A DNA stretch of 54,626 nucleotides from an uncultured Paracoccaceae bacterium. Lineage in GTDB: Bacteria; Pseudomonadota; Alphaproteobacteria; Rhodobacterales; Rhodobacteraceae. The DNA lies in contig CALMJS010000024.1 of the NCBI GenBank assembly GCA_937864535.1, positions 1 through 54,626 of the forward strand. The letters run 5' to 3'. The notes beneath the pieces were generated by a model. That model did not search any database, was not told the origin of the DNA, and saw only the letters and a list, made by a program, of their open reading frames with translations. Positions 4-15,006 of this stretch are shown here, one piece after another. Position numbers and translations under genes: made by a program. Position 1 is the first letter of the stretch. Every line of letters starts with the position of its first letter.

Positions 4-189
4 TTAGTAGGTAGCGGCTTGCTGGACCGACAGGGCGGTCGACATCTTGTCGCCCATGGCGGTGGAGCCGCCCGAGATCGACGAGATGATTGCGACAGCG
101 ATACCGACCATGGCAGCGGTCAGAACGACCCAGTCAACGGTCACGGCGCCATCTTCGTCACGACGGAAGTTTTTGATGAAATTCAGCAT
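4..189 (-). CDS. Flp family type IVb pilin
   Basis: This 61-residue protein has the layout of a Flp (Tad-type) pilin precursor: a short basic leader ending at Gly14, then a hydrophobic helix of about 20 residues and a small polar tail. Prepilin peptidase would cut after Gly14, leaving a mature protein that starts AVTVDW. The usual Glu5-Tyr6 pair of Flp pilins is Asp5-Trp6 here. The stop codon is complete, and a GGAGG sits 8-9 bases before the start. No tad assembly genes are visible in this window, so the secretion machinery must be elsewhere. It is probably expressed from a promoter in the 190-537 region, divergent from the lytic transglycosylase gene. Confidence 0.85.
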   Translation of the reverse strand: MLNFIKNFRRDEDGAVTVDWVVLTAAMVGIAVAIISSISGGSTAMGDKMSTALSVQQAATY

Positions 190-537
190 TTGGTGTCCCT
201 CCTCAGGGGTTTAGATCGCTCTTAATCTTCCTATCGGAGCCTGCTCACCGGCCTCATTTGGTGTGCTGTCCGCTTCGGATGAGTTGATATAGCCGTCTGA
301 ATGGGGCCGGATTGGGGCAGGTTTCGTGCATCTTTGGCGCAAACGGATTTTTAGATATACTTTAGTATAAATCATTGAAAATTTTGGGTAAAAAAATCCA
401 ACGCGCTGTTTCGAGGCCTCTTTGGTGCCGATCTGTCCCCCGAAATGGGACGAAACGGTCGCATTGTGGCAGCGGAGAGTGGTCAGATGCCTAAATTTCT
501 GCGATAATTTTCGCAGGCAGAGGCAGGTTAGAACCGC
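190..537. other. Gene-free divergent promoter region
   Basis: These 348 bases separate the Flp pilin gene (leftward) from the lytic transglycosylase gene (rightward). No convincing ORF is present. The middle, about 345-400, is distinctly AT-rich against a GC-rich background, as expected for promoters, and holds a perfect 14-base palindrome listed separately. I see no tRNA, terminator or recognisable riboswitch here. Confidence 0.6.
356..369. promoter_or_regulatory. Palindrome TATACT-TT-AGTATA, possible operator
   Basis: Perfect inverted repeat with 6-base arms and a TT centre, in the AT-rich core of the region between the pilin and transglycosylase genes. It could be an operator or simply part of AT-rich promoter DNA. 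The binding protein is unknown. Confidence 0.35.
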
Positions 538-1353
538 ATGAAGCGGCGCTTGGCGATCATTTTTACTCTGGCGGCCTTATCCGCCGACTCGGTTTTTGCC
601 GAGTCGAACGTCGTGCAAGCCGATTTTACCTATAAGAGGGTCGGTCTCCCGGCGCCCGGCGCGACGAATCGTATTACGGTTCAAATTGATCCGGCCGCGA
701 TTCCCGTCCCCGCTGCGCCCGAACCCAGTGCACCTGTGCCCGGCGCCAGCCCATCGGGGGGGGATCTGGACTGGTTTTGGGGCCTGATTTCCCCGGACGC
801 CGCCGCGACAGGGCCCGGTCGGCTGGCGACTGCTCTGTCCGCTCTTGAACAACCGCCCGAAGGGAAAGCGCTGGTCCAACCCCGGCTAGAGGCACTGCAA
901 CGCATCGTCCAGAGCTATGGCCGCGACATCATGATGGAAACGATCGGCACCCAGGTGTCGCCCGCTCTGGTTCTGGCGGTGATCTCTGTCGAGAGCGCGG
1001 GCAATCCTCGCGCGATCAGCCGGACGGGGGCGCAGGGGCTCATGCAGTTGATGCCGGGGACCGCGGAACGCTTTGATGTCGCGAATGCGATGGATGCCTC
1101 ACAGAACATTGCCGGGGGCGTTGCCTACCTCGACTGGCTGATTAACGATTTCGACCGTGATCCCATCCTCTATATCGCCGCCTATAACGCAGGCGAGGGA
1201 GCGATTCGGGATAACAACGGTGTTCCCAACTATGCCGAAACCCGCGATTACGTGCCAAAGGTTCTCTCTGCTTGGACTGTGGCGCGTGCTCTTTGCGTGA
1301 CGCCGCCAGAGCTGATGACCGACGGTTGCGTCTTTTCCTTAAACGGAGACTGA
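538..1353 (+). CDS. Secreted lytic transglycosylase (SLT domain)
   Basis: The 271-residue protein begins with a signal peptide (about residues 1-21, KRR then a hydrophobic core ending VFA). A proline/alanine-rich linker follows at about 50-75, then a C-terminal SLT domain at about 135-245. The catalytic Glu152 is in ISVESAGNP, followed by the family motifs GAQGLMQLMP and AAYNAGEGAI. The family cleaves peptidoglycan glycan strands in the periplasm, leaving 1,6-anhydro-muramyl ends. Two cysteines near the C-terminus (253 and 264) could form a disulfide. The next gene starts 3 bases after the stop, so the two are probably cotranscribed. Its place beside a pilin gene suggests a role in opening the wall for a surface structure, but that is inference. 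Confidence 0.9.
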   Translation: MKRRLAIIFTLAALSADSVFAESNVVQADFTYKRVGLPAPGATNRITVQIDPAAIPVPAAPEPSAPVPGASPSGGDLDWFWGLISPDAAATGPGRLATALSALEQPPEGKALVQPRLEALQRIVQSYGRDIMMETIGTQVSPALVLAVISVESAGNPRAISRTGAQGLMQLMPGTAERFDVANAMDASQNIAGGVAYLDWLINDFDRDPILYIAAYNAGEGAIRDNNGVPNYAETRDYVPKVLSAWTVARALCVTPPELMTDGCVFSLNGD

Positions 1354-1356
1354 ATA

Positions 1357-2784
1357 TTGACCCATTCTCAGCCGCTTGTTCTCGATGTGGACGGTACGTT
1401 TCTGCGCACGGATTTGTTGTATGAAACCTTTTGGGCGGGCCTAGGCCGTGCGCCGATCACGACGATCAGGGCGGCGTTTCGATTTTGGCGTGATCCCGCG
1501 CGGCTCAAGTCCGAACTGCGTCAGATCGCGCCGCTGCGGCTGGATCTTTTGCCGGTCAACGACCAGATCGCCCAGATGGCAAGGGACGCGCAGGCCGAAG
1601 GCCGGGAGGTCGTCCTCGCCTCGGCTTCTGATCGGCATCTGGTTCAGGATCTGGCGACGCTGCATGGATTTGATGCCGCCTTGGGGTCTGAACCCGGACA
1701 CAACCTCAAAGGTGCGCACAAGGCGCGGGCGCTGGTCGCAGAGTACGGCGACAAGGGCTTTATCTACGCTGGCGATGACAAATCCGATGCCGCCATCTGG
1801 GCGCGTGCCAGCCATTCTATCGTTGTGGGGCGCGCTGGCGGGGCAGGGGAGAAACTCCCCGTCGCTCAGAAAACGCAACTGCCGGGTGGCTGGTCCTGGT
1901 CTGCCTTAACCAAGGCGATCCGTCCGCATCAATGGGTCAAGAACGTTCTGCTGTTTCTGCCGATGATTGCGGCGCATCAGTTCGACCTGATGACCGCGTT
2001 CTTGGTGGTGCTGGGTATCGCGGCATTCTCGGCGGCGGCTTCGTCGATCTACGTGGTGAATGACCTGCTCGACCTCGAGGCGGATCGCCTGCACCGCACC
2101 AAGTGCAAGCGCCCTTTTGCGGCCGGCACCGTTCCGATCAAGGTCGGGATGATCGCCTGCGGCGGTCTGGCGGCGATTGCTCTGGGGCTCGGGGCTGTGT
2201 TGGGCATCGCGTTCCTGGGTGTTGTGGTGCTCTATATGATCTTGTCGCTGGCCTATTCGCTCAAGCTCAAACGGATGCGCTGGATCGACATTTTCACCCT
2301 CGCGGCTCTTTATACCATCCGGGTGGTGGCAGGGGCCGCGGCGAGTCAGGTCGATGCTTCGGTGTTTATGCTGATCTTTATCTTTCCGATTTTTGTCACG
2401 CTGGGCTGCGTCAAACGATTGACCGAATTGACGCTCGCGACGAACGATGACCCGTTGCCCGGTCGTGGCTATGGACGCCTGGACCGTCCGGATTTGTTGA
2501 ACGTGGCGATACTGGGGATGGTCGGGGCCTTGGTGATCTTTTTCCTGTATTCCTTTAGCGAACAGGCGCGGGTTCTCTATCCGTCGCAGTGGCTGCTCTG
2601 GGTGGCCTTGATCCCGATTGCTGCATGGCTCAATCGCATGGTGCGACTGGGCTGGTTCGGGCAGCAGGATTACGATCCCATCGTTTTCGCGCTCAAGGAC
2701 AAGCGGGGCATCGGGCTGTTGCTGATCACTTTGTCGCTAATGTTCTATTCTGCCGGGCTCTGGCAGCAATGGTTCGGGTTCTAA
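1357..2784 (+). CDS. HAD phosphatase-UbiA prenyltransferase fusion (DPPR synthase-like)
   Basis: This 475-residue fusion starts at TTG, with GGAG 8 bases upstream. Residues 1-170 form a HAD phosphatase-like domain: nucleophile motif DVDGT (Asp10, Asp12), the SAS motif near 89-91 and GDDKSD at 139-144. From about 185 on is a polytopic UbiA domain with NDLLDLEADR (235-244) followed by H-x-T-K-x-K-R-P. That pattern matches decaprenyl-phosphate phosphoribosyltransferases (Mycobacterium Rv3806c) better than quinone or haem prenyltransferases. Family knowledge: UbiA makes polyprenylphosphoryl-5-phosphoribose from PRPP, which then needs dephosphorylation. I infer that the fused HAD domain supplies that phosphatase. 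The DprE1- and DprE2-like genes lie convergently just downstream. Confidence 0.85.
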   Translation: MTHSQPLVLDVDGTFLRTDLLYETFWAGLGRAPITTIRAAFRFWRDPARLKSELRQIAPLRLDLLPVNDQIAQMARDAQAEGREVVLASASDRHLVQDLATLHGFDAALGSEPGHNLKGAHKARALVAEYGDKGFIYAGDDKSDAAIWARASHSIVVGRAGGAGEKLPVAQKTQLPGGWSWSALTKAIRPHQWVKNVLLFLPMIAAHQFDLMTAFLVVLGIAAFSAAASSIYVVNDLLDLEADRLHRTKCKRPFAAGTVPIKVGMIACGGLAAIALGLGAVLGIAFLGVVVLYMILSLAYSLKLKRMRWIDIFTLAALYTIRVVAGAAASQVDASVFMLIFIFPIFVTLGCVKRLTELTLATNDDPLPGRGYGRLDRPDLLNVAILGMVGALVIFFLYSFSEQARVLYPSQWLLWVALIPIAAWLNRMVRLGWFGQQDYDPIVFALKDKRGIGLLLITLSLMFYSAGLWQQWFGF

Positions 2785-2798
2785 TGTTCCAAATAGAC

Positions 2799-2823
2799 AA
2801 GGGCGCCAGATGGCGCCCTTTGT
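2799..2823. terminator. Bidirectional terminator between UbiA fusion and SDR gene
   Basis: A 10-base-pair stem (arms 2799-2808 and 2811-2820) flanked by A- and T-runs lies between the convergent stop codons. It can serve both strands. Confidence 0.8.
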
Positions 2824-3555
2824 TCAGATCGACAGCTTTTTAAAGATCGGCTCGGGGATCAGGCGGATTATTGTCATGACCAAGAGCCAAAGGCGTTTTG
2901 TATATACCGTGTTCCGCTGGCTCTTGAGGCCCGCGATGATGTCCTTGGCGACCGCATCCGGTGTAGCCATGAACGGCAACTGGCTGCCCCATGTCATCGC
3001 CGTATCTACCGGCCCGGGTTTCACGGTCATCACATGAATGCCCTTGCGTCCCAATCGATTGCGCAGGCCTGATAGATAGGTCGAGAACCCGGCCTTGGCC
3101 GCGCCATAGACATAGTTGCCGAGCCGCCCGCGATCTCCGGCAACAGAGCTGACACCGACGATTTCGCCCGCTTCGCGCTCTTCCATCAGGGGGGCAAGAG
3201 CGGTCAGGAACTGCGCCGGTCCGGTAAAACTATCGATGACAACACCGGGGATCAGGCCCGGATCAGCGTCAATTTCCGATTGCTCCGGCATTGATCCGAC
3301 GAAAACCGCACAGCAAATTGTCCCGCTGATGGTTTGCAGTCGCGCGAGCACCGGTGCGAAACTGTCGGCATCGCGCATATCGATTGCACAGACCTCGGCC
3401 GCAGCTGCGCCGCGATGTCTGGCATCGGCGGCGGTAACCAACATGTCGTTTTGATCCCGACCGCAGAGCAGGAAACCCGCGCCAGTGTCGGCCTCTTGCC
3501 GGATAAAGGCGCGTGCGATGGCACTGGTCGCCCCTAGAATGACCCAAGTTTTCAT
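2824..3555 (-). CDS. SDR oxidoreductase, DprE2-like keto-reductase
   Basis: 243 residues. The start chosen (MKTWVILGATS) overlaps the stop of the upstream DprE1-like gene as ATGA; a longer reading would lack the Rossmann start. NAD(P)-binding motif GATSAIA at 8-14, catalytic Ser136/137, Tyr150 and Lys154 (YGAAK). The C-terminus is hydrophobic and ends IPEPIFKKL, as in DprE2 proteins. In mycobacteria DprE2 reduces the 2-keto intermediate made by DprE1, turning polyprenylphosphoryl-ribose into the arabinose epimer. Here the tight coupling to a DprE1 homologue supports the same reaction at the inner membrane. A generic SDR role is possible, but the context makes it unlikely. Confidence 0.85.
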   Translation of the reverse strand: MKTWVILGATSAIARAFIRQEADTGAGFLLCGRDQNDMLVTAADARHRGAAAAEVCAIDMRDADSFAPVLARLQTISGTICCAVFVGSMPEQSEIDADPGLIPGVVIDSFTGPAQFLTALAPLMEEREAGEIVGVSSVAGDRGRLGNYVYGAAKAGFSTYLSGLRNRLGRKGIHVMTVKPGPVDTAMTWGSQLPFMATPDAVAKDIIAGLKSQRNTVYTKRLWLLVMTIIRLIPEPIFKKLSI

Positions 3556-4847
3556 ATCGCAGTCCTTAGGGCCAATCGCCGCGTCAGGTCGGTTTCGAGC
3601 CGTCTTTCCGGGTCGATATCGTTCACCGTGGCGGCCCATTCCGGCAAATGGGTGTACATCGCCCTGGCCTGCGCCGCCGTCGACAGGCTGTCCTTGGCCA
3701 GATAGACCCTGCCGTTCGCCTCGATGGTCTGGGCGATCAAATGCGCAATCAGTTCTGGCGTCGCGCCGCGATTGGGGAAATCAACGGCGAGCGTAAAGCC
3801 CTCTTTTGCAAAGGAAAGATGCCCGGACTCTGCAGGGCCCATACGTTTGAGCACGGCAAGAGGCGAGGCGGCACCAGCCTCGGCGATGGCCCCCAGCATG
3901 CCTCGTAGCGCGTAGCGTTCATTTGTCGGTACGACGCACTGGAACTGATGGAACCCGGTTTTGCCATAGAGCCGATTCCAGTCGTGAACGCGGTCGAGCG
4001 GGAAAAAGAAATCCTCGATCGGGCGAATGACGAATTGGCCGTCCGCCGGTACGCGTCGATAATAGAGCGTGTTAAACATCCGGACCATCGGCGCCGAAAG
4101 GGCAAATCCCGGCGCATCGAAGGGGATCGTGCGGGTCTTGGTCCGATGTTTCGCTTCTGCGCCGCTGGTTTCCGCCTCTTCGACAATTCCGCGTCCGAGC
4201 GACGCGCCGGTGGCAGCGGCATCGACCCAACCGACACAGAACGTTGCCTGCGAGGCATCCAGCATCGCAATATGTTCGTCAAAGTTTTCGGCCCGCCGTT
4301 CGTGCACCTTCATCGTGCGCCCGGGGACGGCCATCAGCGACAGTCGCGCCGAAGCGATCACCCCGGTTTGACCGAGACCACCGATTGTCGCCCGCCAAAT
4401 ACTGGTGTCATCCGGAGCGATCACCCGTGGTCCATCGGGGGTCAGCAAAGTGATTTCGCGGACGTGACCGCCGAAAGATCCGGCATGATGGTGGTTCTTG
4501 CCGTGCACATCCATCGCGATACAGCCGCCAACCGTCGCAAAGCCGGTACCGGGCATCACACGTGGCAGCCAGCCCCTGGTTGGCAGTACCCGTGCCAGAT
4601 CGCCGATCGTGCAGCCAGCCTCGACGTGGATGTCACCCGTTCTGGTGTCGAACTCCAGAATTCGGTCGAGCCGCGTCATATCCATCGCCCGCCCGCCCGA
4701 ATTCAGTGCAGCGTCGCCATAACTCCGACGATTGCCGATTGCCGGAGCGGTCGGGGTCACTTGGGACTGACGCTCTGGCCGGGCAAGCTGTCCAGAAGCG
4801 GTTAAGGCTCGGCCCCAACCCGAGTAGGTATTTGTTTTCCAGCGCAT
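3552..4847 (-). CDS. FAD-linked oxidase, DprE1-like (decaprenylphosphoryl-ribose 2'-oxidase)
   Basis: 431 residues from the ATG one base after the flippase-like gene's stop. The N-terminal FAD-binding (VAO-type) domain has RSYGDAALN at 41-49, where DprE1 proteins have RSYGD-x-A, and HGKNHHHAGSFG at 115-126, matching the DprE1 flavin-site motif. The C-terminal substrate domain has AVDFP (354-358) and AKDS (384-387). Lys385 aligns with Mycobacterium tuberculosis Lys418. Ala354 aligns with Cys387, the residue that benzothiazinones modify; the 31-residue spacing between the two positions is identical. Expected role: oxidation of C2' of polyprenylphosphoryl-ribose, with the SDR completing the epimerisation. 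Probably the third gene of a leftward operon. Confidence 0.88.
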   Translation of the reverse strand: MRWKTNTYSGWGRALTASGQLARPERQSQVTPTAPAIGNRRSYGDAALNSGGRAMDMTRLDRILEFDTRTGDIHVEAGCTIGDLARVLPTRGWLPRVMPGTGFATVGGCIAMDVHGKNHHHAGSFGGHVREITLLTPDGPRVIAPDDTSIWRATIGGLGQTGVIASARLSLMAVPGRTMKVHERRAENFDEHIAMLDASQATFCVGWVDAAATGASLGRGIVEEAETSGAEAKHRTKTRTIPFDAPGFALSAPMVRMFNTLYYRRVPADGQFVIRPIEDFFFPLDRVHDWNRLYGKTGFHQFQCVVPTNERYALRGMLGAIAEAGAASPLAVLKRMGPAESGHLSFAKEGFTLAVDFPNRGATPELIAHLIAQTIEANGRVYLAKDSLSTAAQARAMYTHLPEWAATVNDIDPERRLETDLTRRLALRTAI

Positions 4848-4848
4848 G

Positions 4849-5847
4849 TCAGTGGCTCTTTGTCGATTTGCGTTCTGCAAAGGGGAAGAGGATCAGGCCC
4901 AGTCCAATGGCAAACCACAGGGTTGTCACCCGAATAATGGCCGTGGCAGGCAGGGAAGTTTCCAGCGGAACCCCCTGCAACGAAAGGAGCGCGATCATCG
5001 CCGCCTCTGCGCCGCCAACGCCGCCCGGCGCTCCTGTTAATCCTCCGGCAAGGGTTGCGAATGTAAAGATGGTGGTAGCGGTCCAGAATCCGACGTCTGC
5101 GCCCATCCAATTTAGCAGCAGGTAAAACGATGCGCCTTCGGCGAACCAGCCCAAGATACCCAGCGCGAGCGAGGCAGTGATGGTTGCTGGCGTAGAGAAC
5201 ATGGCCAAAGAGCGCGAGGCGCGGCGGAGCTTTGCAAATAGCCGGGCAAAGCGACCGGTCAGGCGAAAGGCGAGTTCTGCCAGTCCGGACAAGAGTTGCG
5301 GCCGCGTCGCGACAAAGGCCGCAGCAAGTGCCACCGTCGCGACGGGCAGACCAAAACGCACGCCGCCGGTGCTGAATGATAGTCCCAGGGCCAAGAGAAT
5401 CGCCATCGCGGCCAAGTCCCCCGCTCTGTCCATCAGGGCCAGCGGCGCGGTCCGTTCAAAGGACCAGCCGGTTTCGCGGCGGAGCCAACGCATGCGGACC
5501 AGTTCCCCGACGCGGCCGGGGGTCACTGACATCGCAAAACCGCCGAGGAAATGGCGGTAATTCTGCGTTATTGTCGTCGGCAGGCCAAGCCGCCGAGCGA
5601 ACAGATGCCAACGACCCCCTCTCAGGGCATAGTTCAGGAGGCTGAGACCCAAGAGCGCAGCGAACTGTCCGACGTCCAACAGCGAGAGTTGATCGATGGT
5701 TTCCTGCCATCCTGTTGCTGCGGCCAGACCACTCAGGCCGACCACCACAAATCCGATGAGCCCGATCGTGATCATCAGATCGCGCCTGCGCCCCCTGGGC
5801 AGGGGCGTCCCGTACGATAACGGCGATGTAGCGCGAAGGTTTGTCAT
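4849..5847 (-). CDS. Lysylphosphatidylglycerol-synthase-TM / UPF0104-like membrane protein
   Basis: 332 residues, start at the ATG preceded by a purine-rich GGGGA; an in-frame upstream extension has no membrane character and was left out. About eight hydrophobic segments and the family arrangement NYALRGGRWHLF early and a glycine-rich GGLTGAPGGVGGAEA late mark the flippase-like LPG_synthase_TM (AglD-like) family. It lacks the soluble lysyl-transferase domain of MprF, so it is not an aminoacyl-lipid synthase. Its stop is one base from the start of the DprE1-like gene. I infer that it may move the polyprenyl-linked sugar across the membrane, or otherwise handle it; the family has no single proven function. 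Confidence 0.75.
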   Translation of the reverse strand: MTNLRATSPLSYGTPLPRGRRRDLMITIGLIGFVVVGLSGLAAATGWQETIDQLSLLDVGQFAALLGLSLLNYALRGGRWHLFARRLGLPTTITQNYRHFLGGFAMSVTPGRVGELVRMRWLRRETGWSFERTAPLALMDRAGDLAAMAILLALGLSFSTGGVRFGLPVATVALAAAFVATRPQLLSGLAELAFRLTGRFARLFAKLRRASRSLAMFSTPATITASLALGILGWFAEGASFYLLLNWMGADVGFWTATTIFTFATLAGGLTGAPGGVGGAEAAMIALLSLQGVPLETSLPATAIIRVTTLWFAIGLGLILFPFAERKSTKSH

Positions 5848-6003
5848 GGGTCCCCATCCGTTTGTCGCCGATCTAGCGACAAATTGGGGCAGGAATATGA
5901 TGACGCTGCGGTTCGCGAAACAGTTTTTGCCCGCATCCGAGCCCAATAGATTCGATGCGGCCAACATGCGCAGGCCGCTTTGGTCGCGTTTCGAAGGTCA
6001 GGT

Positions 6004-6873
6004 TCAGAAAAGCCCGACGTATTCAGGCGGAAGCCGTAGGATCTGACGCTTGGTTGTCGGGCTGCGCACATAGATGCCGTTCTTGACCTTGCGCAGTTTA
6101 TACGAGGCACGGTTCAGCTGTGGTGCGTTCAACTGTTCCGCGGTTTTGATTGTCCCAAGCCTGAATTCGTCCAGATAGTCGGCCTCGGTCCGCCAGGTTT
6201 TTCCACCCAGGTTCGGAAAGGGTTTGCCGGTGGCCGGATCGATAATCATCGAATACCGCGCCGCGCGCCGCTCTTGGAACTGGCGGTTATCAAACAACCG
6301 TAAATGAAACAGCGTCAGATTGGGGTCGATGACATAGTTTTCCTGGTCGCAATAGTGACCTCCCGATCCCCATCGAATGGCGTGCCGGGTGATCGCGGGC
6401 TTTGAATACCAGCTGTTGTGGACAAAGTGTCGACGTTGGCCGAGTACCGGCAGCGTGGGGTCGTAATCGTTCGGTTCCTGATCCGGGACATGGACGATGT
6501 CGATGCCCGTCGGAGCTACCACCGGATCGGGGTGATCCAGGATATACTCGACCGGATTTGTGCCAACCTTCGGATCTAGAACAATAATCTCATCGACATC
6601 TGTATAGATGGCCCGGTCGAACATGTAGCAGGCCCCGGAGACAAAGTGAGAGATCATCGACCAGCGATCCCTCTCGCTGTTGTCGTGAACGGCTGGCCTG
6701 TTGATCCGCAGGGTATTGCAGCCCTTGGCCAAGGCTTCGTAGCGATCGTAATTTGCGTGCATCAGAACAAAGATATTCTCGCGCGGCAGGAACCGTGTCC
6801 AATACCGCAAGAAGATGTCCAAATAGACATCATCGTCGTAGACCATCGTGAAGAGGGCGAGTTGCTTAGACAC
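6004..6873 (-). CDS. Glycosyltransferase family 2/92-type
   Basis: 289 residues from a GTG start that overlaps the end of the FkbM gene by 8 bases, so the two are translationally coupled. The N-terminal half reads as a GT-A fold: a beta strand at LALFTMVYDDD, then an acidic metal-binding motif YTDVDEIIV near residue 92. It resembles the glycosyltransferases annotated family 2 or DUF23/GT92 that act on surface polysaccharides. No membrane segments are evident, so it should work on the cytoplasmic face. Donor and acceptor cannot be read from sequence. About 150 bases without a gene separate it from the flippase-like gene downstream, which is on the same strand. Confidence 0.75.
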   Translation of the reverse strand: MSKQLALFTMVYDDDVYLDIFLRYWTRFLPRENIFVLMHANYDRYEALAKGCNTLRINRPAVHDNSERDRWSMISHFVSGACYMFDRAIYTDVDEIIVLDPKVGTNPVEYILDHPDPVVAPTGIDIVHVPDQEPNDYDPTLPVLGQRRHFVHNSWYSKPAITRHAIRWGSGGHYCDQENYVIDPNLTLFHLRLFDNRQFQERRAARYSMIIDPATGKPFPNLGGKTWRTEADYLDEFRLGTIKTAEQLNAPQLNRASYKLRKVKNGIYVRSPTTKRQILRLPPEYVGLF

Positions 6874-7549
6874 GAGAATTCCTCTTGAACACCATCACGC
6901 GCGGGCGTTCCATCGCGGCGAGGTCGGGATAAAGGCCTGCAGTCATCAAAACATGAAACAACCTGGACTGACGCGCAAGATCTGTGGTGTCGGGATGGAG
7001 TTCGGCAACCACGAGGTCGATCTGCCTCCAGTCGATGTCGGGAAAGAGCGTATACTCGGCCCCTTCGATGTCGCAGACCAAAACATTCGCACCCGTATTG
7101 CGGAGCAGTTCATTGACGTCGAGCGTGTCGATTTCAACGCTACGCGCGATATCCGGCGTATCCGGCGACAGTGAAGATGCCCAAAAATCGCTGGAAATAT
7201 AAAAGGTTGCCTTGCCGTCTGCCGCGCCGACCAGCGCATTGATGACGGTGATCCCCGTGACGCCATTGCAGGCATGGGTATGCGCGATAATCGGCAACAG
7301 ATCAGGGTTCGCCTCGACAGAGGTGACCTGCGAAGGGGCGCTGGCGCGGGCCAGACATGTGCCGATCACGCCGCATCCGGCGCCAAGTTCCACGATGCGA
7401 TCCGATGGCCGTACCGCGGCGGCAATCGCTCGACGCTCCATCAACTCATAACGGTCGTCCTTCAGGGCCCGTTTCAGCGAGTTGCTAAAGTTCTGTTCGA
7501 TATCTTCGACAACGATGCCGCCGGACAGTTCAAAGGATTTTATGGCCAT
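6866..7549 (-). CDS. FkbM family methyltransferase
   Basis: 227 residues with a class I SAM-dependent fold: motif I IVELGAGCGVIG near 53-64, the acidic strand end SVEANPD near 77-83, and the FkbM signature VLVCDIEGAEYTLF near 157-170. FkbM enzymes O-methylate small molecules and sugars; those in glycan clusters usually cap or modify sugar residues. It is the first gene of the leftward glycan operon and shares its upstream region (7550-7668) with the divergent sulfotransferase gene. The substrate is unknown. Confidence 0.8.
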   Translation of the reverse strand: MAIKSFELSGGIVVEDIEQNFSNSLKRALKDDRYELMERRAIAAAVRPSDRIVELGAGCGVIGTCLARASAPSQVTSVEANPDLLPIIAHTHACNGVTGITVINALVGAADGKATFYISSDFWASSLSPDTPDIARSVEIDTLDVNELLRNTGANVLVCDIEGAEYTLFPDIDWRQIDLVVAELHPDTTDLARQSRLFHVLMTAGLYPDLAAMERPRVMVFKRNSRV

Positions 7550-7668
7550 GAAAGATCTAGGATTGCTCTATAGGTGCAGGTTAAGGGTCCATCGGTAGCT
7601 TGGCAATGCGGCTAAGGTTTGACATGACCACAGTCTATCGCTGAATCTGCGTAAAATTGGTTTCGTGT

Positions 7669-8502
7669 ATGAAGAATGACCGCACTTTAGATCGTCAATT
7701 GGCAAAACATCCCGCTGTCGGGTCCGAGCCAAAGCGATTTTACCTCTGGGGGCGTGTGCACCCGCATCGTGCCCGCCTGCGCAATCTGCCGATGGAGGTG
7801 CGGGTTTACCTGAACGCCCTGCGCCGGAGGGCGCGGCCCAAGGGCTTTATCCTCTATGGGCGTCCGCGATCTGGCACGACATTGCTGATGGATTTGCTGG
7901 GACAGGTTCCTGGCGTTCAGTCCAGCGGCGAACTTTACCACTCGTTCCTGCTGTTCCCGCGCGGGTTTTTAGCCGCGCTCTTGCCTGCCGCCAAGGAGCC
8001 GGTATTCGGCTTTAAACTGTTGTCCTACCAATTGTGCGAAGTGCACAAAATCCGCAAACCTATTGCGTTCTTCCGGCGCGCAGAGGCCAAAGGATTTCGG
8101 TTGATCTACATTCGTCGGGGGACATTCGCGCAGACCCTTTCCTTGGCCAAGGCGCAGGCGACGGGCGTCTATTTCGTCGATGGCGACGTGAGGCAGCATG
8201 TCCGCATCGACCCCGACTATTTTGTCGAGCTGTTGATCTGGAACGACAAAATGCTGTCCTACGAGGCCGAAGTGGTCCGCGCGCTTGATCATGTCGAGGT
8301 CGACTATGAACGCGATCTGCGCGATCCGGCGGGCCATCAGGCGTTGATTGACCGACTCTGCGCGGATCTGGGCATAGCCTCGTTCCCGGTCGCGGCTCGG
8401 CTGCGGCGGACCGGCGGCGAGGACGGTGCGATCGTCCTCGACAATCTGCCAGAACTCCGGGCGGCCACGCAGGCGGCAGGGCTCGCGCATTTGCTGCCCT
8501 GA
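7669..8502 (+). CDS. Stf0/NodH-type sulfotransferase
   Basis: 277 residues from the ATG; an in-frame TTG four codons upstream is possible but has no better ribosome site. The PAPS 5'-phosphosulfate loop is plain at 64-71 (GRPRSGTT), followed by SSGELYH as in LPS and Nod-factor sulfotransferases of the Stf0 family. A second PAPS-contact region is probably the RLIYIRRGTFAQTLS segment. It would transfer sulfate to a carbohydrate or glycolipid in the cytoplasm. It is divergent from the FkbM/glycosyltransferase operon, so the two may serve one glycan. The stop lies 9 bases from the end of topA, with no terminator between them. Confidence 0.82.
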   Translation: MKNDRTLDRQLAKHPAVGSEPKRFYLWGRVHPHRARLRNLPMEVRVYLNALRRRARPKGFILYGRPRSGTTLLMDLLGQVPGVQSSGELYHSFLLFPRGFLAALLPAAKEPVFGFKLLSYQLCEVHKIRKPIAFFRRAEAKGFRLIYIRRGTFAQTLSLAKAQATGVYFVDGDVRQHVRIDPDYFVELLIWNDKMLSYEAEVVRALDHVEVDYERDLRDPAGHQALIDRLCADLGIASFPVAARLRRTGGEDGAIVLDNLPELRAATQAAGLAHLLP

Positions 8503-8511
8503 CCGCGTGTT

Positions 8512-11100
8512 TTACGCCTCGTCGGCCTTCTTGGCGGATTTCTTGGGCGCAGCTTTCTTGGCGGGTGTTTTCTTGGCTGCCGGGGCCTTCTTGGTCGGGC
8601 TTGCCTTTTTCTTGGTGGTCTTGCTACCGGCCTTGGCGTTTACCAATTCGATCGCCATTTCTGGCGTGACGGACTCCGGCTCCACATCCTTGGGCAGGGT
8701 CGCATTCACCTTTTCCCACTTGATGTAGGGACCGTAGCGGCCGGACATCACTGCCATTGCGCCACCGCTCGGGTGATCGCCCAGTTCCTTGAGCGGCTTG
8801 GCAGCGGTCCGCCCGGCGCGGCCAGCAGCCTTTTGCGCCAGAATTTCGACCGCGCGGTTCATACCGACCTCAAAGACCTCATCCACCTCCTTGAGGTTGG
8901 CGTAGGTCGTGCCGTGTTTGACAAAGGGGCCAAAGCGACCGATTCCGGCCTCGATCATGACGCCATCCTCGGGATGGGGGCCGACTTGGCGCGGAAGGTT
9001 GAGCAACATCAGGGCCTTGTCCAGATCAACACTCTCGGGAGCCCAACCCTTGGGCAGGCTCGAACGTGGCGGTTTGGGGGTGTCCTCGGTCACTTCGCCA
9101 CGCTGCACATAGGGGCCGAAACGGCCGTCCCGCAGACTGATCGGATCGCCGTCGTCGTGCCCCAAGAGTTTCCCGTCGGGGCCGATCCCCGATTCTTCGG
9201 TCCCCGGAGGGCCAAATGGGCGCGTGTAGCGACATTCGGGATAGTTGGAGCAGCCAATAAACGCCCCGCCGGACCGGGCGGTCCGCATCGACAGCCGTCC
9301 CTGTCCACAGTTGGGACAGGCCCGCGGATCGCCGCCATCGGCGGTCGGCGGGAACAGATGCGGTTCGAGCACTTCGTTGATCTTGTCCAGAACCTCGGTG
9401 ATCCGCAGCTCGGACGTTTCGGCCAATGCCGCCGAGAAGTCCCGCCAGAACCGATTGAGCACGGCCTTATAATCCGCCTCGCCCGCAGAGACCTCGTCCA
9501 GTTCGTTTTCCAAACCGGCGGTAAAGTCGTATTCGACGTATTTGCGGAAGTAATTGGACAGGAAAACCGTAACCAGTCGCCCCTTATCCTGCGGGATCAG
9601 GCGGCCTTTGTCCTTGGCGACATAGTCGCGGTCCTGAATGGTGGTGACTATCGAGGCATAGGTCGACGGGCGACCGATGCCCAATTCTTCCATCCGTTTG
9701 ACGAGCGTCGCCTCGGTGTAGCGCGGCGGCGGCTGGGTAAAATGCTGTTCCGGCTGGACAGATTTCTTGTCGGTCTTATCGCCGACATGCAAAACCGGCA
9801 GGCGGCCATCTTCGTCATCGACGACACTATCGTCGCGGCCTTCTTCGTAGATGGCGATAAAACCTTCAAACAGAACCACTTGGCCGGTTGCACGCAGATT
9901 GACCTGTCCGTCGGCGCTGGCAATGTCGACGGTCGTCCGCTCCATCTGCGCGGCGGCCATTTGGCTGGCGATGGTGCGTTTGTAGATCAGGTCGTACAGT
10001 TTGCGCTGATCATCGTCTGCGATTCTGGCCTTCTCGGTCGACATGAACATATCCGTCGGGCGGATACATTCGTGTGCTTCCTGCGCATTCTTGGCCTTGT
10101 TTTTATACATCCGCGGGCTGCTAGGCAGGTATTGTTCGCCAAACTTTGCCTTGATCGCGTCGCGGGCAGACATCACGGCCTCTGGTGCCATGTCGATACC
10201 GTCGGTCCGCATATAGGTGATCAGGCCCGCCTCGTAGAGCCGCTGCGCCGCGCTCATGGTTTGGCGGGCGCCCATGCCGAATTTGCGGCTGGCCTCTTGT
10301 TGTAGAGTCGAGGTCATAAAGGGCGGCGAGGGGTTCCGGCTGGCGGGTTTTGCCTCGACCGATTGCACGGTCAGGTCACGATGTTCGATCGCGGCGGCGG
10401 CCATTTCAGCATGCGTCGCGGTGGCGATGTCGAATTTGTCCAGCTTCTTACCGGCAAAGGCGGTCAGACGCGCTTCGAATTCCTGACCGCGCGGGGTCGA
10501 GAGGACTGCCTTGATTGTCCAGTATTCCTGCGGGCGAAAGGACTCGATTTCCATTTCCCGTTCGACGATCAGCCGCAGACAGACCGACTGAACACGTCCT
10601 GCCGATTTCGCACCCGGCAATTTGCGCCACAGAACCGGCGACAGGTTAAAGCCCACCAGATAGTCCAGCGCGCGGCGCGCCAGATAGGCCTCGACCAGAT
10701 GCGTGTCGACCTGACGCGGCGCCTTCATCGCTTCGGTCACGGCAGATTTGGTGATCGCGTTAAAGGTGACGCGGCTAACCTGCGTGTCCTTCTTGATCGC
10801 CTTGCGGTCGGTCAGAGCCTGCTGCAAGTGCCAGCTGATCGCCTCGCCTTCGCGATCAGGGTCGGTTGCGAGGATCAGGTTAGGATCATCTTTGAGGGCG
10901 TCGGCAATCGCCTTGACGTGCTTTTTGCTGTCATTGGCGATTTCCCATTTCATGTCGAAATCGCTGTCAGGGTCGACCGACCCATCCTTGGCCGGCAGGT
11001 CGCGGACGTGACCAAAGGAGGCCAGGACCGTGTAATCGGAGCCCAGATACTTGTTGATTGTCTTTGCCTTGGCTGGGGATTCGACAACAACAACTGGCAT
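8512..11100 (-). CDS. topA: DNA topoisomerase I
   Basis: 862 residues, normal for an alphaproteobacterial TopA. The Toprim domain starts at residue 3 (VVVESPAKAKTI) and has the D-x-D-x-E motif at 80-84. The active-site tyrosine is Tyr296 in ITYMRTDG. One four-cysteine zinc motif follows (CPNCGQGR then CSNYPEC), then several GPYV/GPFV/GPYIK repeats of the C-terminal topo-zinc-like type, and a lysine/alanine/proline-rich tail rich in KK, PAK and TKK steps. It relaxes negative supercoils by cutting one strand. AGGAG lies 6 bases before the ATG. dprA lies upstream on the same strand, 124 bases away. Confidence 0.98.
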   Translation of the reverse strand: MPVVVVESPAKAKTINKYLGSDYTVLASFGHVRDLPAKDGSVDPDSDFDMKWEIANDSKKHVKAIADALKDDPNLILATDPDREGEAISWHLQQALTDRKAIKKDTQVSRVTFNAITKSAVTEAMKAPRQVDTHLVEAYLARRALDYLVGFNLSPVLWRKLPGAKSAGRVQSVCLRLIVEREMEIESFRPQEYWTIKAVLSTPRGQEFEARLTAFAGKKLDKFDIATATHAEMAAAAIEHRDLTVQSVEAKPASRNPSPPFMTSTLQQEASRKFGMGARQTMSAAQRLYEAGLITYMRTDGIDMAPEAVMSARDAIKAKFGEQYLPSSPRMYKNKAKNAQEAHECIRPTDMFMSTEKARIADDDQRKLYDLIYKRTIASQMAAAQMERTTVDIASADGQVNLRATGQVVLFEGFIAIYEEGRDDSVVDDEDGRLPVLHVGDKTDKKSVQPEQHFTQPPPRYTEATLVKRMEELGIGRPSTYASIVTTIQDRDYVAKDKGRLIPQDKGRLVTVFLSNYFRKYVEYDFTAGLENELDEVSAGEADYKAVLNRFWRDFSAALAETSELRITEVLDKINEVLEPHLFPPTADGGDPRACPNCGQGRLSMRTARSGGAFIGCSNYPECRYTRPFGPPGTEESGIGPDGKLLGHDDGDPISLRDGRFGPYVQRGEVTEDTPKPPRSSLPKGWAPESVDLDKALMLLNLPRQVGPHPEDGVMIEAGIGRFGPFVKHGTTYANLKEVDEVFEVGMNRAVEILAQKAAGRAGRTAAKPLKELGDHPSGGAMAVMSGRYGPYIKWEKVNATLPKDVEPESVTPEMAIELVNAKAGSKTTKKKASPTKKAPAAKKTPAKKAAPKKSAKKADEA

Positions 11101-11224
11101 GGGAACTCCTGCGTTCTACGGCCTCAAGGGTGGCGGCGTAGATTGGCCGCACGATGGTTCCCCTGTCAATGCGCCATCCGTCGCAGAAGTTTCAAGTCCC
11201 CCTATCCAGCATTTCCCCATCATT

Positions 11225-12367
11225 TTAGACGCAAAGTGCCAATAGGCCCCCGGCTTGGCGTAAAATTTGACCATCGAGTTCGAGTTCGACCAACGCTGGC
11301 GCGATCAGGTGGGTCGGCAGCCCCAAATCGCGGGTCAATTGATCCTCTGGCACCGGCGACGGCCCCAAACACGAGAGAATCTGTTGGTGGAGCGCGGCGG
11401 TTTCCTGAAATCCGCGCTGCGGCAGACCAGTGGATCGCGCGGGTTTCGGGGCAGGGGGCGGGGCGCTGACCGGAGGCGCCTGTACAATCGACAGGACATC
11501 CTCTGCGGTGCGGATCAATGTTGCCCCATCGCGGAGCAGGGCGTTGCACCCGCCCGCCCTGCCGTCGAACGGATGACCGGGCACAGCGCCGACCTCGCGC
11601 CCGAGACTGAGCGCGGCATCTGCGGTAATCAGGCTGCCGGATTTGAGTGCGGCCTCGATAATAATGACCGACCGGGCCAGACCGGCGATGATCCGGTTGC
11701 GCACCGGGAAATGACGGGCCTGCGGTTGCAGACCGATCGGCTGTTCCGAGAGACGTAGGCCCTTTTGCCCGATGTCATTGAAGATCTGTGTATTTTCGGC
11801 GGGATAGATGATGTCGACCCCGCCTGCGAGGACAGCAATCGTCCCTCCCTGCAGGCTGGCGGTATGGGCGGCTGCGTCGATCCCGCGGGCGAGGCCGGAC
11901 ACGATCACGAAACCCTGCTCTGACAGATCCGAGGCGAGCTTGCGTGCCATGCGTAGACCGAGGGAAGACGCGCTGCGGGCGCCAACCATGGCGATGGCAG
12001 GGCGCTGCATCAGGGCCAAGTCCCCGACGCACCAGAGCATCGGCGGCGGGTCGGACAGATCGTCCAGCCCGATCGGCCATTCGGGCGAGCCGCGCCATAT
12101 CAGCCGTGCCCCTGCATCGCGTCCAGAACGCAATTCAGCCAGCGCGACGGGTTCCGGACATGGGGTGTAGTCATTGATCCCGGCCTGCCTGGCTATTTCA
12201 GGCAGAGCCTCGAACGCGGCGCGGGCGGTTTTGTGTTCCGCCATCAGTCGGTAGTAGGTCGCTATGCCGACCCTGCGAGAGCGCAACAGACGAAGCCGAT
12301 AGAGCCGTTCGTCCTCCGTGGTGGGTGGGAGTGGGGGGTGAGTAGAAGAAACGATATCCTCGGTCAT
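11225..12367 (-). CDS. dprA: DNA-processing protein DprA
   Basis: 380 residues starting at MTEDIVSS; the longer in-frame reading runs through the probable promoter and was rejected. Central Rossmann-like DprA domain: MVGARSASSLG, then GLARGIDAAAHTASL, VLAGGVDIIYP and the late motif PGHPFDGRAGGCN with its conserved SGSLITADAAL. A short winged-helix-like C-terminal domain follows a proline-rich linker. DprA loads RecA on incoming single-stranded DNA during transformation. In Rhodobacter capsulatus it is needed by recipients of gene transfer agent DNA and depends on CtrA, which fits the CtrA-like site just upstream. Confidence 0.95.
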   Translation of the reverse strand: MTEDIVSSTHPPLPPTTEDERLYRLRLLRSRRVGIATYYRLMAEHKTARAAFEALPEIARQAGINDYTPCPEPVALAELRSGRDAGARLIWRGSPEWPIGLDDLSDPPPMLWCVGDLALMQRPAIAMVGARSASSLGLRMARKLASDLSEQGFVIVSGLARGIDAAAHTASLQGGTIAVLAGGVDIIYPAENTQIFNDIGQKGLRLSEQPIGLQPQARHFPVRNRIIAGLARSVIIIEAALKSGSLITADAALSLGREVGAVPGHPFDGRAGGCNALLRDGATLIRTAEDVLSIVQAPPVSAPPPAPKPARSTGLPQRGFQETAALHQQILSCLGPSPVPEDQLTRDLGLPTHLIAPALVELELDGQILRQAGGLLALCV

Positions 12368-12410
12368 CCGACGCTCCGTCTGTTGCAAGACCGTTCTAGC
12401 GCCAGAAGAG

Positions 12411-12426
12411 TTAACCGCCGGTAAAC
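12411..12426 (-). promoter_or_regulatory. CtrA-like site upstream of dprA
   Basis: Read on the dprA strand the sequence is TTTA-N7-TTAAC, one mismatch from the alphaproteobacterial CtrA consensus TTAA-N7-TTAAC. It is centred about 50 bases before the dprA start codon, a fitting position for promoter control. The match is direct; CtrA binding is inferred. Confidence 0.5.
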
Positions 12427-12488
12427 GCCGAAAAAAATCTGCGGTTTTTCGCAAAAATTTTTCGGCGGGCGGGCCTTGGAGGTTCAGA

Positions 12489-13910
12489 TCAGGCCGAACC
12501 ACCCACCGTCAGACCACCAAGCATCAACGTCGGTTGTCCCACGCCGACCGGAACGGATTGCCCCGCCTTGCCGCAGACGCCGATGCCGGGGTCCAGCGCC
12601 ATATCGTTGCCCAGGGCCCTGATCTGGCTCATCGCCTCGGGGCCGTCGCCGATCAGGGTCGCACCCTTGACCGGGGCACCGACGACGCCGTTTTTCACAC
12701 GGTAGGCCTCGGTGCAGGAAAACACGAATTTGCCGTTGGTGATGTCGACCTGACCGCCGCTAAAGCCGACGGCGTAAATGCCATCCTTGAGGTCGGTCAG
12801 AATCGAGGCCGGATCAGCGGTTCCGCCGGTCAGGTAGGTGTTTGTCATCCGCGGCATCGGCAGGTGGGCATAGCTCTCGCGGCGCCCGTTGCCTGTCGGT
12901 GCGACGCCCATCAGCCGGGCATTCTGGCGGTCCTGCATGTAGCCGACCAGAATGCCGTCCTCGATCAGCACGTTTTTGCCCGATGCCGTGCCTTCGTCGT
13001 CGACATTGAGCGATCCGCGCCGGCCCGGAATGGTGCCGTCGTCCAATACAGTCACACCCCGAGAGGCGACCTGTTGGCCGATCCGCCCCGAAAACGCGCT
13101 GGTGCCTTTGCGGTTAAAGTCGCCCTCAAGCCCGTGACCGACGGCCTCGTGCAGCAGAACGCCCGGCCAACCCGGCCCCAGAACCACGTCCATCACGCCT
13201 GCGGGGGCATCGACGGCCTCTAGGTTAACCAATGCGATGCGCAGGGCCTCCTTGACGGCGGGTTCCCAATTGTCGCGGCTGATCACGCCGATCAGCCCCT
13301 CGCGCCCGCCACCGCCATGCGATCCGGATTCGCGGCGACCATTCGCGTCCTCGACGATGACAGCCACGTTCAGACGGCTCATCGGGCGGGAATCGCTGAC
13401 CAGATGGCCGTCAGGGCGTAGAACCACGACCTCCTGTAGTTCCGCCGACAGAGAGGCGGACACCTGCACCACCCGGCGGTCGAGGTCGCGCGCATAGCTG
13501 TCGATTTCACGCAAGAGTTCGATCTTGCCCGGGAAACTGGCCTCGGCAATGGGATCGGAATCGCCATAGAGCCGCACATTCGTCGGCTGAGGCCCGACGG
13601 CGAGCGTGCCGCCACCTTCCCCGACCGCCAGACGCGCGGTCGCCACGGCCCGGCGCAGCGCCTGTTCGTCTATGGTGCTGGAATGGGCGTAACCAGCCGT
13701 TTCGCCTAAAACCGCGCGCAGGCCAAAGCCTTCGGAGGCGTTGTAGCTGGCGGTTTTGATCCGACCATCGTCCAGGGTCAAAAATTCTGACCGGCGTCGT
13801 TCGAGAAATAATTCCCCGTCATCCGCCCCGTGAGTCGCCTCCTGGAGCATCAAAAGGGCGTTATCGCGGTCCAGATTGGTCTCAAATGGGCGGAAACGAT
13901 CGTCAGTCAT
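12489..13910 (-). CDS. tldD: Metalloprotease TldD
   Basis: 473 residues, the usual length. The zinc motif H-E-x3-H of the TldD/PmbA family is at 254-259 (HEAVGH), followed by GLEGDFNRKGTS. The C-terminal half has the glycine-rich GGTADPASILTDLKDGIYAVGFSGG stretch in pieces typical of TldD. With TldE (not in this window) it degrades unfolded peptides and, in enterobacteria, processes microcin B17 and CcdA. The gene is divergent from the cytochrome oxidase operon, and an FNR box lies 24 bases before its start codon. It ends 120 bases before the dprA start. Confidence 0.95.
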   Translation of the reverse strand: MTDDRFRPFETNLDRDNALLMLQEATHGADDGELFLERRRSEFLTLDDGRIKTASYNASEGFGLRAVLGETAGYAHSSTIDEQALRRAVATARLAVGEGGGTLAVGPQPTNVRLYGDSDPIAEASFPGKIELLREIDSYARDLDRRVVQVSASLSAELQEVVVLRPDGHLVSDSRPMSRLNVAVIVEDANGRRESGSHGGGGREGLIGVISRDNWEPAVKEALRIALVNLEAVDAPAGVMDVVLGPGWPGVLLHEAVGHGLEGDFNRKGTSAFSGRIGQQVASRGVTVLDDGTIPGRRGSLNVDDEGTASGKNVLIEDGILVGYMQDRQNARLMGVAPTGNGRRESYAHLPMPRMTNTYLTGGTADPASILTDLKDGIYAVGFSGGQVDITNGKFVFSCTEAYRVKNGVVGAPVKGATLIGDGPEAMSQIRALGNDMALDPGIGVCGKAGQSVPVGVGQPTLMLGGLTVGGSA

Positions 13911-13933
13911 GTCTGTATTTTCCCGTGGCGGCC

Positions 13934-13947
13934 TTGATTTGGATCAA
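13934..13947. promoter_or_regulatory. Perfect FNR/FnrL box TTGAT-N4-ATCAA
   Basis: TTGATTTGGATCAA matches the FNR consensus at all ten defined positions. It sits between tldD and coxB, centred about 30 bases before the tldD start and 166 before the coxB start. In Rhodobacter, FnrL links oxygen tension to respiratory gene expression. Either or both genes could be targets. Confidence 0.75.
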
Positions 13948-14106
13948 AAAGCGTCCTTCTGCCGCAATCGCAGTTCTTGAGTTGTGGCTCAGGATATGTG
14001 ACATGCAACCCCGGAGACAACGGGATTCCGTCCGTTTGTGCCCCGATGGGTGCTGGGCAGGGTCTATTGGGGGCGTTCCTGCGCCCCGATCAGAACAGGG
14101 TATGAC

Positions 14107-15006
14107 ATGCGACTGACCAATTTCGTCACCAAGCTTTCGGCTACGGCCGTTATGGCTCTTGCCAGTGCCGCTGCGACTGCGCAGCAGGTGGGCCAAGACC
14201 TGCAAGTAGTCGGCGCGCCGGTTGCCGGTGCGACGGGCTTCCAGCCTGCCTCTTCGGAACTGGCCCGTGACCTGCAATGGCTGGACGGCATGATCATGGT
14301 GATCATCACCGCCATCACCATTTTCGTCGTGGCGCTGCTGGGCTATGTGATCGTGCGCTACAACCAGCGCGCAAACCCCAAGCCCGCGACCTTTACGCAC
14401 AATTCGCCGCTGGAAATCGCCTGGACGATCGTGCCGATCCTGATCCTGGTGTTCATCGGTGCGTTCTCGCTGCCGACTCTGTTCAAGCAGCAGGAAATTC
14501 CGGACGGCGATGTGGTGATCAAGGTCACTGGCCACCAGTGGTACTGGACCTATGAATACGTCGATGACGCGGTTCTGTTCGACAGCTACATGATCGGCCA
14601 GCCGTCGACCCTGTCGGGCGAAGATGAAACCGCTGGCGCACAGGCCTATGTCCGCAGCGAGGCGATGAACGCCGTTCTGGCCCGCTATGGCTATGATAGC
14701 GACCACTTCCTGCTGGCGACGGATAATGCCGTTGTTGTGCCGGTCGGTGCGGTTGTCGTGATGCAGGTGACGGCCGATGACGTGATCCACTCGTGGGCTC
14801 TGCCTGCCATGGGCGTCAAGCAGGATGGCGTCCCGGGCCGTCTGGCCCAGCTGTGGTTCGCTGCTGAACAAGAAGGCGTGTTCTTTGGTCAGTGTTCGGA
14901 ACTGTGTGGCAAGGACCACGCCTATATGCCGATCACCGTCAAGGTCGTGAGCCAAGAAGCCTATGACGCTTGGCTGGCCGCTGCCAAGGAAGAATTCCCG
15001 GCCTAA
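14107..15006 (+). CDS. coxB: Cytochrome c oxidase subunit II
   Basis: 299 residues. The start at MRLTNFVTK gives a normal signal peptide ending near ATAQQ. Two transmembrane helices (about 62-85 and 104-124) precede the periplasmic cupredoxin domain. The CuA ligands are all present: His228, Cys263, Glu265, Cys267, His271 and Met274. [10 protein letters not shown] at 142-151 is the aromatic electron-entry patch. It accepts electrons from cytochrome c in the aa3-type oxidase. First gene of the assembly operon coxB-ctaB-(small ORF)-ctaG-coxC; subunit I is not here, as is usual in Rhodobacteraceae. Confidence 0.97.

Follow-up and report, generated by a model that had tools for sequence, protein, structure and literature searches.

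In Pseudomonas, TfpW adds D-arabinofuranose to the type IVa pilin, a modification reported to protect the cell from pilus phages (excerpts of PMC11841053 and PMC12369383, citing Kus 2008 and Harvey 2011). The three-component systems of Citrobacter youngae O1 and O2 use ORF15, reported to be a polyprenyl phosphoribofuranose synthase in which an N-terminal HAD-family phosphatase is joined to UbiA, together with auxiliary epimerases and a GT-C transferase, and DprE1 and DprE2 homologues have been reported in candidate pentofuranose systems with arabinofuranose (excerpts of PMC11127046). In mycobacteria, the pathway runs through Rv3806c, Rv3807c, DprE1, DprE2 and AftA. Here, we describe a gene block from an uncultured Paracoccaceae bacterium, near the start of contig CALMJS010000024.1 (C24 of a 35-contig genome; its full 54,626 nucleotides are the window). 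On balance, we favor the view that this block provides the donor half of a system that adds D-arabinofuranose specifically to the Tad (Flp) pilus, with Flp as the likeliest acceptor.

As in the Pseudomonas system, a ubiA-bearing gene set for D-arabinofuranose would be coupled to a GT-C enzyme and a pilus target. There, according to the same excerpts, the pilin is of type IVa, tfpW stands beside pilA and the donor genes lie in a separate island, whereas here we find a Tad cluster with Flp, a HAD-UbiA fusion and a PF03706 flippase candidate; the candidate transferase, c60, is likened to TfpW by context. The fused N-terminal HAD phosphatase, the epimerases and a GT-C transferase recall Citrobacter, but the excerpts place a MATE flippase and a GT136 enzyme acting on O antigen in that system, in contrast to the LPG_synthase_TM candidate and unclassified GT-C-like protein beside Tad. 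The mycobacterial pathway offers the same predicted reaction order, homologous UbiA, DprE1 and DprE2 proteins, and AftA, to which the c60 model is closest; unlike in mycobacteria, the phosphatase would be a HAD domain joined to UbiA and the candidate acceptor is a pilus rather than galactan. Pentofuranose and pilin glycosylation are already known; the new aspect is the pairing of donor genes with a new GT-C-like family around a Tad cluster. Among the matches listed for the open-access (PMC) literature, none has a title or opening abstract lines that connect Tad pili with arabinose or glycosyltransferases, and the main text of a Rhodobacterales Tad paper (PMC8383342) contains no glycosyl, arabino or UbiA. 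No report of a sugar on the Tad pilin of Rhodobacteraceae appears among those matches or in the excerpts of PMC8383342, PMC11067988 and PMC13234629. The features concerned are as follows.

1357..2784, + strand: fusion of a HAD (phosphoribose phosphatase-like) domain and a UbiA polyprenyl-phosphate phosphoribosyltransferase-like domain (NF006088; PDB 8j8j)
2824..3555, - strand: DprE2-like short-chain dehydrogenase/reductase (SDR) (best PDB match DprE2; NF053786)
3552..4847, - strand: DprE1-like FAD oxidase, for the first half of 2'-epimerisation (PDB DprE1; NF053785)
4849..5847, - strand: LPG_synthase_TM/TIGR00374 flippase-like membrane protein, candidate flippase for a lipid-linked sugar (PF03706, 153.7 bits)
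4..189, - strand: Flp-like Tad pilin, 61 amino acids, copy 2, the likeliest acceptor (open reading frame (ORF) that falls within a 35-member cluster of called Flp-like genes)
L108:3777-5435, outside the window: c60, 552-amino-acid membrane protein beside the TadV peptidase at the far end of the Tad cluster, with a GT-C-like fold modeled for a homologue
538..1353, + strand: SLT lytic transglycosylase (PF01464), adjoining Flp in trait-positive and trait-negative genomes
2799..2820, - strand: terminator-like stem where the UbiA and DprE2 genes converge, predicted by a consensus scan alone, with 11 found against 8.4 expected

Donor genes at one end of a Tad cluster

The HAD-UbiA protein matches NF006088 over nearly its full length (residues 3-465 of 475), scoring 489 bits against a cut-off of 351. 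Its UbiA part aligns to the DPPR synthase (decaprenyl-phosphate phosphoribosyltransferase) of Mycobacterium tuberculosis (8j8j, E 1.8e-24) and keeps the Asp-rich stretch NDxxDxxxDxxxxTKxxRP. A sequence-only reading of this DNA had recognized the DPPR-synthase pattern and missed the fused HAD domain, which scores 26.5 bits against PF12710, slightly below the 27-bit cut-off. By predicted family membership, the fusion is an ORF15-type polyprenyl-phosphate phosphoribosyltransferase with a phosphatase domain. Since Citrobacter ORF15 has the same layout, the HAD domain would complete the donor route by supplying the 5'-phosphatase step.

The leftward DprE1-like and DprE2-like genes overlap by 4 bases (ATGA), and the flippase-like gene ends one base short of the DprE1 ATG. 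Among solved structures, the two proteins match best to DprE1 (4e-68) and to M. tuberculosis DprE2 (1.3e-20, with the next SDR at 1.9e-13), not to generic oxidases or SDRs. Both remain '-like' because they score below the NCBIfam equivalog cut-offs (350 bits against 500 for NF053785, 138 against 250 for NF053786). In the DprE1-like protein, Ala replaces a Cys of the aligned DprE1 chain, a residue that we take to be Cys387, the benzothiazinone target. Given best matches to Rv3806c-type UbiA, DprE1 and DprE2, the three genes plausibly encode a route from phosphoribosyl pyrophosphate to polyprenyl-phosphate-arabinofuranose, in which the DprE1-like and DprE2-like proteins would epimerise C2. The sequence-only reading had proposed this pathway and described the overlapping oxidase-SDR pair, and in both respects our comparisons agree with it. 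The LPG_synthase_TM protein may then flip the lipid-linked arabinofuranose into the periplasm. No MATE flippase is encoded in the locus, to which the search was confined; the block's membrane protein is of the PF03706 family. The convergent order, with UbiA rightward and DprE2, DprE1 and flippase leftward, is repeated in many family genomes that we fetched and is thus more than chance.

The block occupies one end of a Tad pilus cluster. A Flp-like pilin gene lies 1.2 kb from the UbiA gene, as had been noticed before; Pfam gives its product a weak DUF4244 match below cut-off. Flp copy 1 and the genome's Tad genes are on contig C34, whose final 55 bases match the first 55 of the window exactly, suggesting that C34 and C24 are adjacent in the assembly graph. 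In the window's own genome (locus L108) and relatives, TadV, TadD, TadC, TadB, TadA, TadZ, RcpA, RcpC and Flp follow in order; in relatives Pfam identified RcpC, secretin and peptidase A24, in the own genome RcpC, and we named the other Tad proteins from order and likeness. Many fetched relatives have RcpC, RcpA, TadZ and TadA on the SLT side of the block, and a motif scan found 1-4 Flp-like ORFs between RcpC and SLT in 28/28 trait-positive loci. Trait-negative genomes have SLT too (19/20 loci), so we assign it to the Tad neighborhood and rejected it as part of the arabinose system.

We sampled the family with 248 genomes, nearly one per genus, and the class with 289; the genome tables for c60, DprE1, UbiA and RcpC were assembled by hand from match lists. 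In the family, HAD-UbiA exceeds its cut-off in 95 genomes, RcpC is found in 208, and a DprE1-like protein reaches at least 334 bits in 90, the next match scoring 82 bits. Class-wide, DprE1-like matches at E 1e-60 occur in 33/289 genomes. The donor pathway, recognized by homology, is real and common in the family. We accordingly rejected rarity of the trait, and the earlier statement that it is not usual for Rhodobacteraceae does not hold.

By gene order, the DprE1 loci fall into two classes. Class A, to which the window belongs, has SLT and UbiA rightward followed by DprE2, DprE1 and flippase leftward, near topA; the flippase-like gene is found repeatedly beside DprE1 there. Class B has HAD-UbiA, a GtrA-like gene, DprE1 and DprE2 on a single strand, and none of its loci was seen adjoining Tad genes. 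With labels set by a nearby flippase (A) or GtrA-like gene (B), a branch with 100/100 support splits the DprE1 tree into 39 rows including all 33 of class A and 20 including all 15 of class B; six of the 11 unlabelled rows fall on the A side and five on the B side. We regard class B as a distinct pentofuranose system within this family. Its loci L086-L105 sometimes carry a further recurring gene set (clusters 19, 21, 22 and 23 of the locus gene clustering). On a UbiA-positive list of 101 family genomes, which includes partial and HAD-less matches below cut-off, 17 have no strong DprE1-like match (e.g. G044, G066, G110, G138); some of these may use ribofuranose or another epimerase, and others may be contig-edge cases (G019, G069).

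The candidate transferase c60 and its co-occurrence with the donor genes

A structural model of a c60 homologue has a GT-C-like fold, and its best structural match is an arabinosyltransferase. At the sequence level, GT87 matched weakly in 7/38 c60 members (best E 5.6e-5), three c60 proteins had no NCBIfam match at E 1, and a profile made from the c60 alignment returned no credible match among solved structures. By fold and co-occurrence, then, c60 is a candidate transferase. From 264 stretches of GTDB contigs encoding c60 relatives we kept 80 loci, in 71 of which TadV adjoins c60, with c61 (ATPase-like) on the other side in 80/80. A cultured relative, Thalassobium sp. R2A62 (L137), has the locus in one piece. 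DprE1 was near full length in 11 of the 12 c60 genomes checked, which were chosen to cover most of the odd cases, and partial in one. In the class-wide sample, the window's own genome was the only one with a c60 match.

In the family, c60 matches occur in 73 genomes, 71 of them strong; the weak ones (G113, G125) were left out of the tables. Both DprE1 and c60 are present in 67 genomes, DprE1 only in 23, c60 only in 4 and neither in 154. All but one of the 23 DprE1-only genomes are class B by coordinates, and the remaining one (G122) is 76% complete. As for the four with c60 only, G019 has a HAD-UbiA match about 0.8 kb from a contig start, G069 has only a 105-position DprE1 match, and G102 and G223 have only a remote c60. 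Three genomes (G112, G192, G205) combine c60 with class B DprE1 alone, which suggests supply of the donor in trans. RcpC occurs in 69/71 c60 genomes versus 139/177 others.

Genomes without the trait show what the cluster looks like when both ends are empty. In 20 Tad-positive genomes picked for having no strong c60 or DprE1, 0/20 loci matched c60, UbiA, DprE2, DprE1 or the flippase. Their Tad genes kept the usual order, with SLT in 19 loci and topA in 13. The same five proteins were unmatched in 12 further c60-negative loci (five genomes with class B DprE1), where SLT or topA was sometimes out of view and L244 and L246 held only distant Tad genes. The aligned parts of c61 and TadV lie about 110-215 bp apart in L237, L240 and L245, which leaves no room for c60. 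These controls point to two inserts that flank about 10 kb of Tad genes and occur either both or not at all. On a tree built by a quick method from the Tad proteins between them (58 loci; L053 and L081 dropped for missing proteins), the states require 8 changes, 6 of them forced, versus 19.6 with shuffled labels. The loci of this tree were selected by state: most positives for DprE1 (L248 for c60), with c60 in 28/28, and negatives for lacking c60; for L108, the own genome, we assigned the DprE state manually, using the window. As the negatives were selected, the tree shows repeated switching rather than an absence of mixed states, and the 248-genome table is the count free of state-based selection. 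The genes for the arabinose donor and for the likely sugar-attaching enzyme thus tend to come and go together on either side of Tad.

Acceptor, exceptions and other explanations

We propose that c60 would move arabinose onto a Tad component, most likely the exposed Flp C-terminus. In Caulobacter, the C-terminus of the Tad pilin points outward (excerpts of PMC11067988). Flp tails are less acidic in c60 genomes (mean net charge -0.9 vs -3.2), with hardly any difference in Ser/Thr content. TY or SY occurs in the last five residues in 12/28 genomes with c60 versus 1/29 without (19/55 versus 1/58 distinct copies), an exploratory and weak post hoc signal, being the strongest of three motifs tried after viewing the tails. 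The sequence-only reading had suggested Flp as acceptor from this one genome; the conserved position and the co-occurrence with a GT-C candidate across the Tad cluster strengthen that suggestion, which is still unproven. More tentatively, at somewhat below even confidence, we extend it to the family: a new GT-C family would put D-arabinofuranose on Flp, with donor and transferase gained or lost as a pair, perhaps to shield the cell from Tad-binding phages.

Several observations weigh against this proposal. Shared ancestry inflates all of the association tests. Five related genomes (G079, G151, G158, G160, G217) keep c60, DprE1, DprE2 and flippase with no HAD-UbiA found, and would need another source of the ribose-lipid. 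No replacement was recognized in loci L229, L230 and L048 of this clade. G217 and G151 each have only two UbiA-family matches over cut-off; G079, G158 and G160 have further ones, and none of the three further proteins examined from them has the DPPRS-type TK..RP stretch, two presumably being BchG-like, judging by their neighbors. A ribosyl-lipid synthase of a new kind is possible in this clade. We also observed that the UbiA-less genomes (loci L047-L051, L229-L234) have no OmpA-like match between TadZ and RcpA. Finally, in G117, of the same genus, neither HAD-UbiA nor RcpC was found in the genome, and the N-terminal part of DprE2 is joined in frame to a TadD-like TPR part (L046:10023-11237); at this fusion, SLT, Flp and UbiA are absent, as are the remaining Tad genes. 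The same truncated gene set occurs in Marivivens donghaensis KCTC 42776 (L130). The G117 locus fits a joint decay of pathway and pilus, unless it is a misassembly.

Among other explanations, the one that fares best, though we consider it unlikely, is that the donor pathway and c60 decorate a polysaccharide (lipopolysaccharide, capsule or exopolysaccharide), the Tad flank being a mere syntenic slot. The pentofuranose systems of Kelly et al. act on O antigens (excerpts of PMC11127046), class B DprE1 loci of this family are found apart from Tad, accompanied by GtrA-like genes, and TadV does not adjoin c60 in 9/80 named loci. Two of these nine (L145, L162) end about 150 bases past c60, and L188 has other Tad genes close. 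A syntenic slot fits poorly with two separate Tad-flanking sites that change together, with Tad in 69/71 c60 genomes, and with G183, where Tad (RcpC), c60 and UbiA are on contig C23 and DprE1 and the flippase are at topA on C12. Slightly less probable is an acceptor within Tad other than Flp, such as the secretin RcpA, the OmpA-like protein or a minor pilin. Flp is singled out by position alone, and its tail signal is weak and post hoc; yet Flp is the filament subunit, its Caulobacter counterpart has the outward C-terminus described above, and a clade that retains c60 lacks the OmpA-like gene at the usual site. That the product is ribofuranose or another pentofuranose seems improbable: the DprE1 and DprE2 models score below equivalog cut-offs and HAD-UbiA occurs without DprE1 in the 17/101 genomes (at least two of which, G019 and G069, may be contig-edge cases), but among solved structures DprE1 and DprE2 match best, and the modeled c60 fold is nearest an arabinosyltransferase.

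Between the flippase gene and topA (6004-8502), the window carries a glycosyltransferase-like ORF without family match, an FkbM methyltransferase and a sulfotransferase. Among the clustered loci, this trio grouped only with its own duplicate on contig C8; we therefore rejected it as part of the system and regard it as probably strain-specific. The first 14,000 bases of C8 (95,045 bases) are 100% identical to window positions 135-14134, which reflects either assembly redundancy or a very recent duplication.

Implications for Tad pili

Tad pili are widespread hairs that serve in adhesion and as phage receptors, and our results suggest that some bacteria may coat these adhesive hairs with sugar. 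If so, an unannotated GT-C-like family would gain a function and D-arabinose would be expected in a common marine family. The paired presence and absence of the two inserts would also provide a system for probing the purpose of pilus glycosylation.

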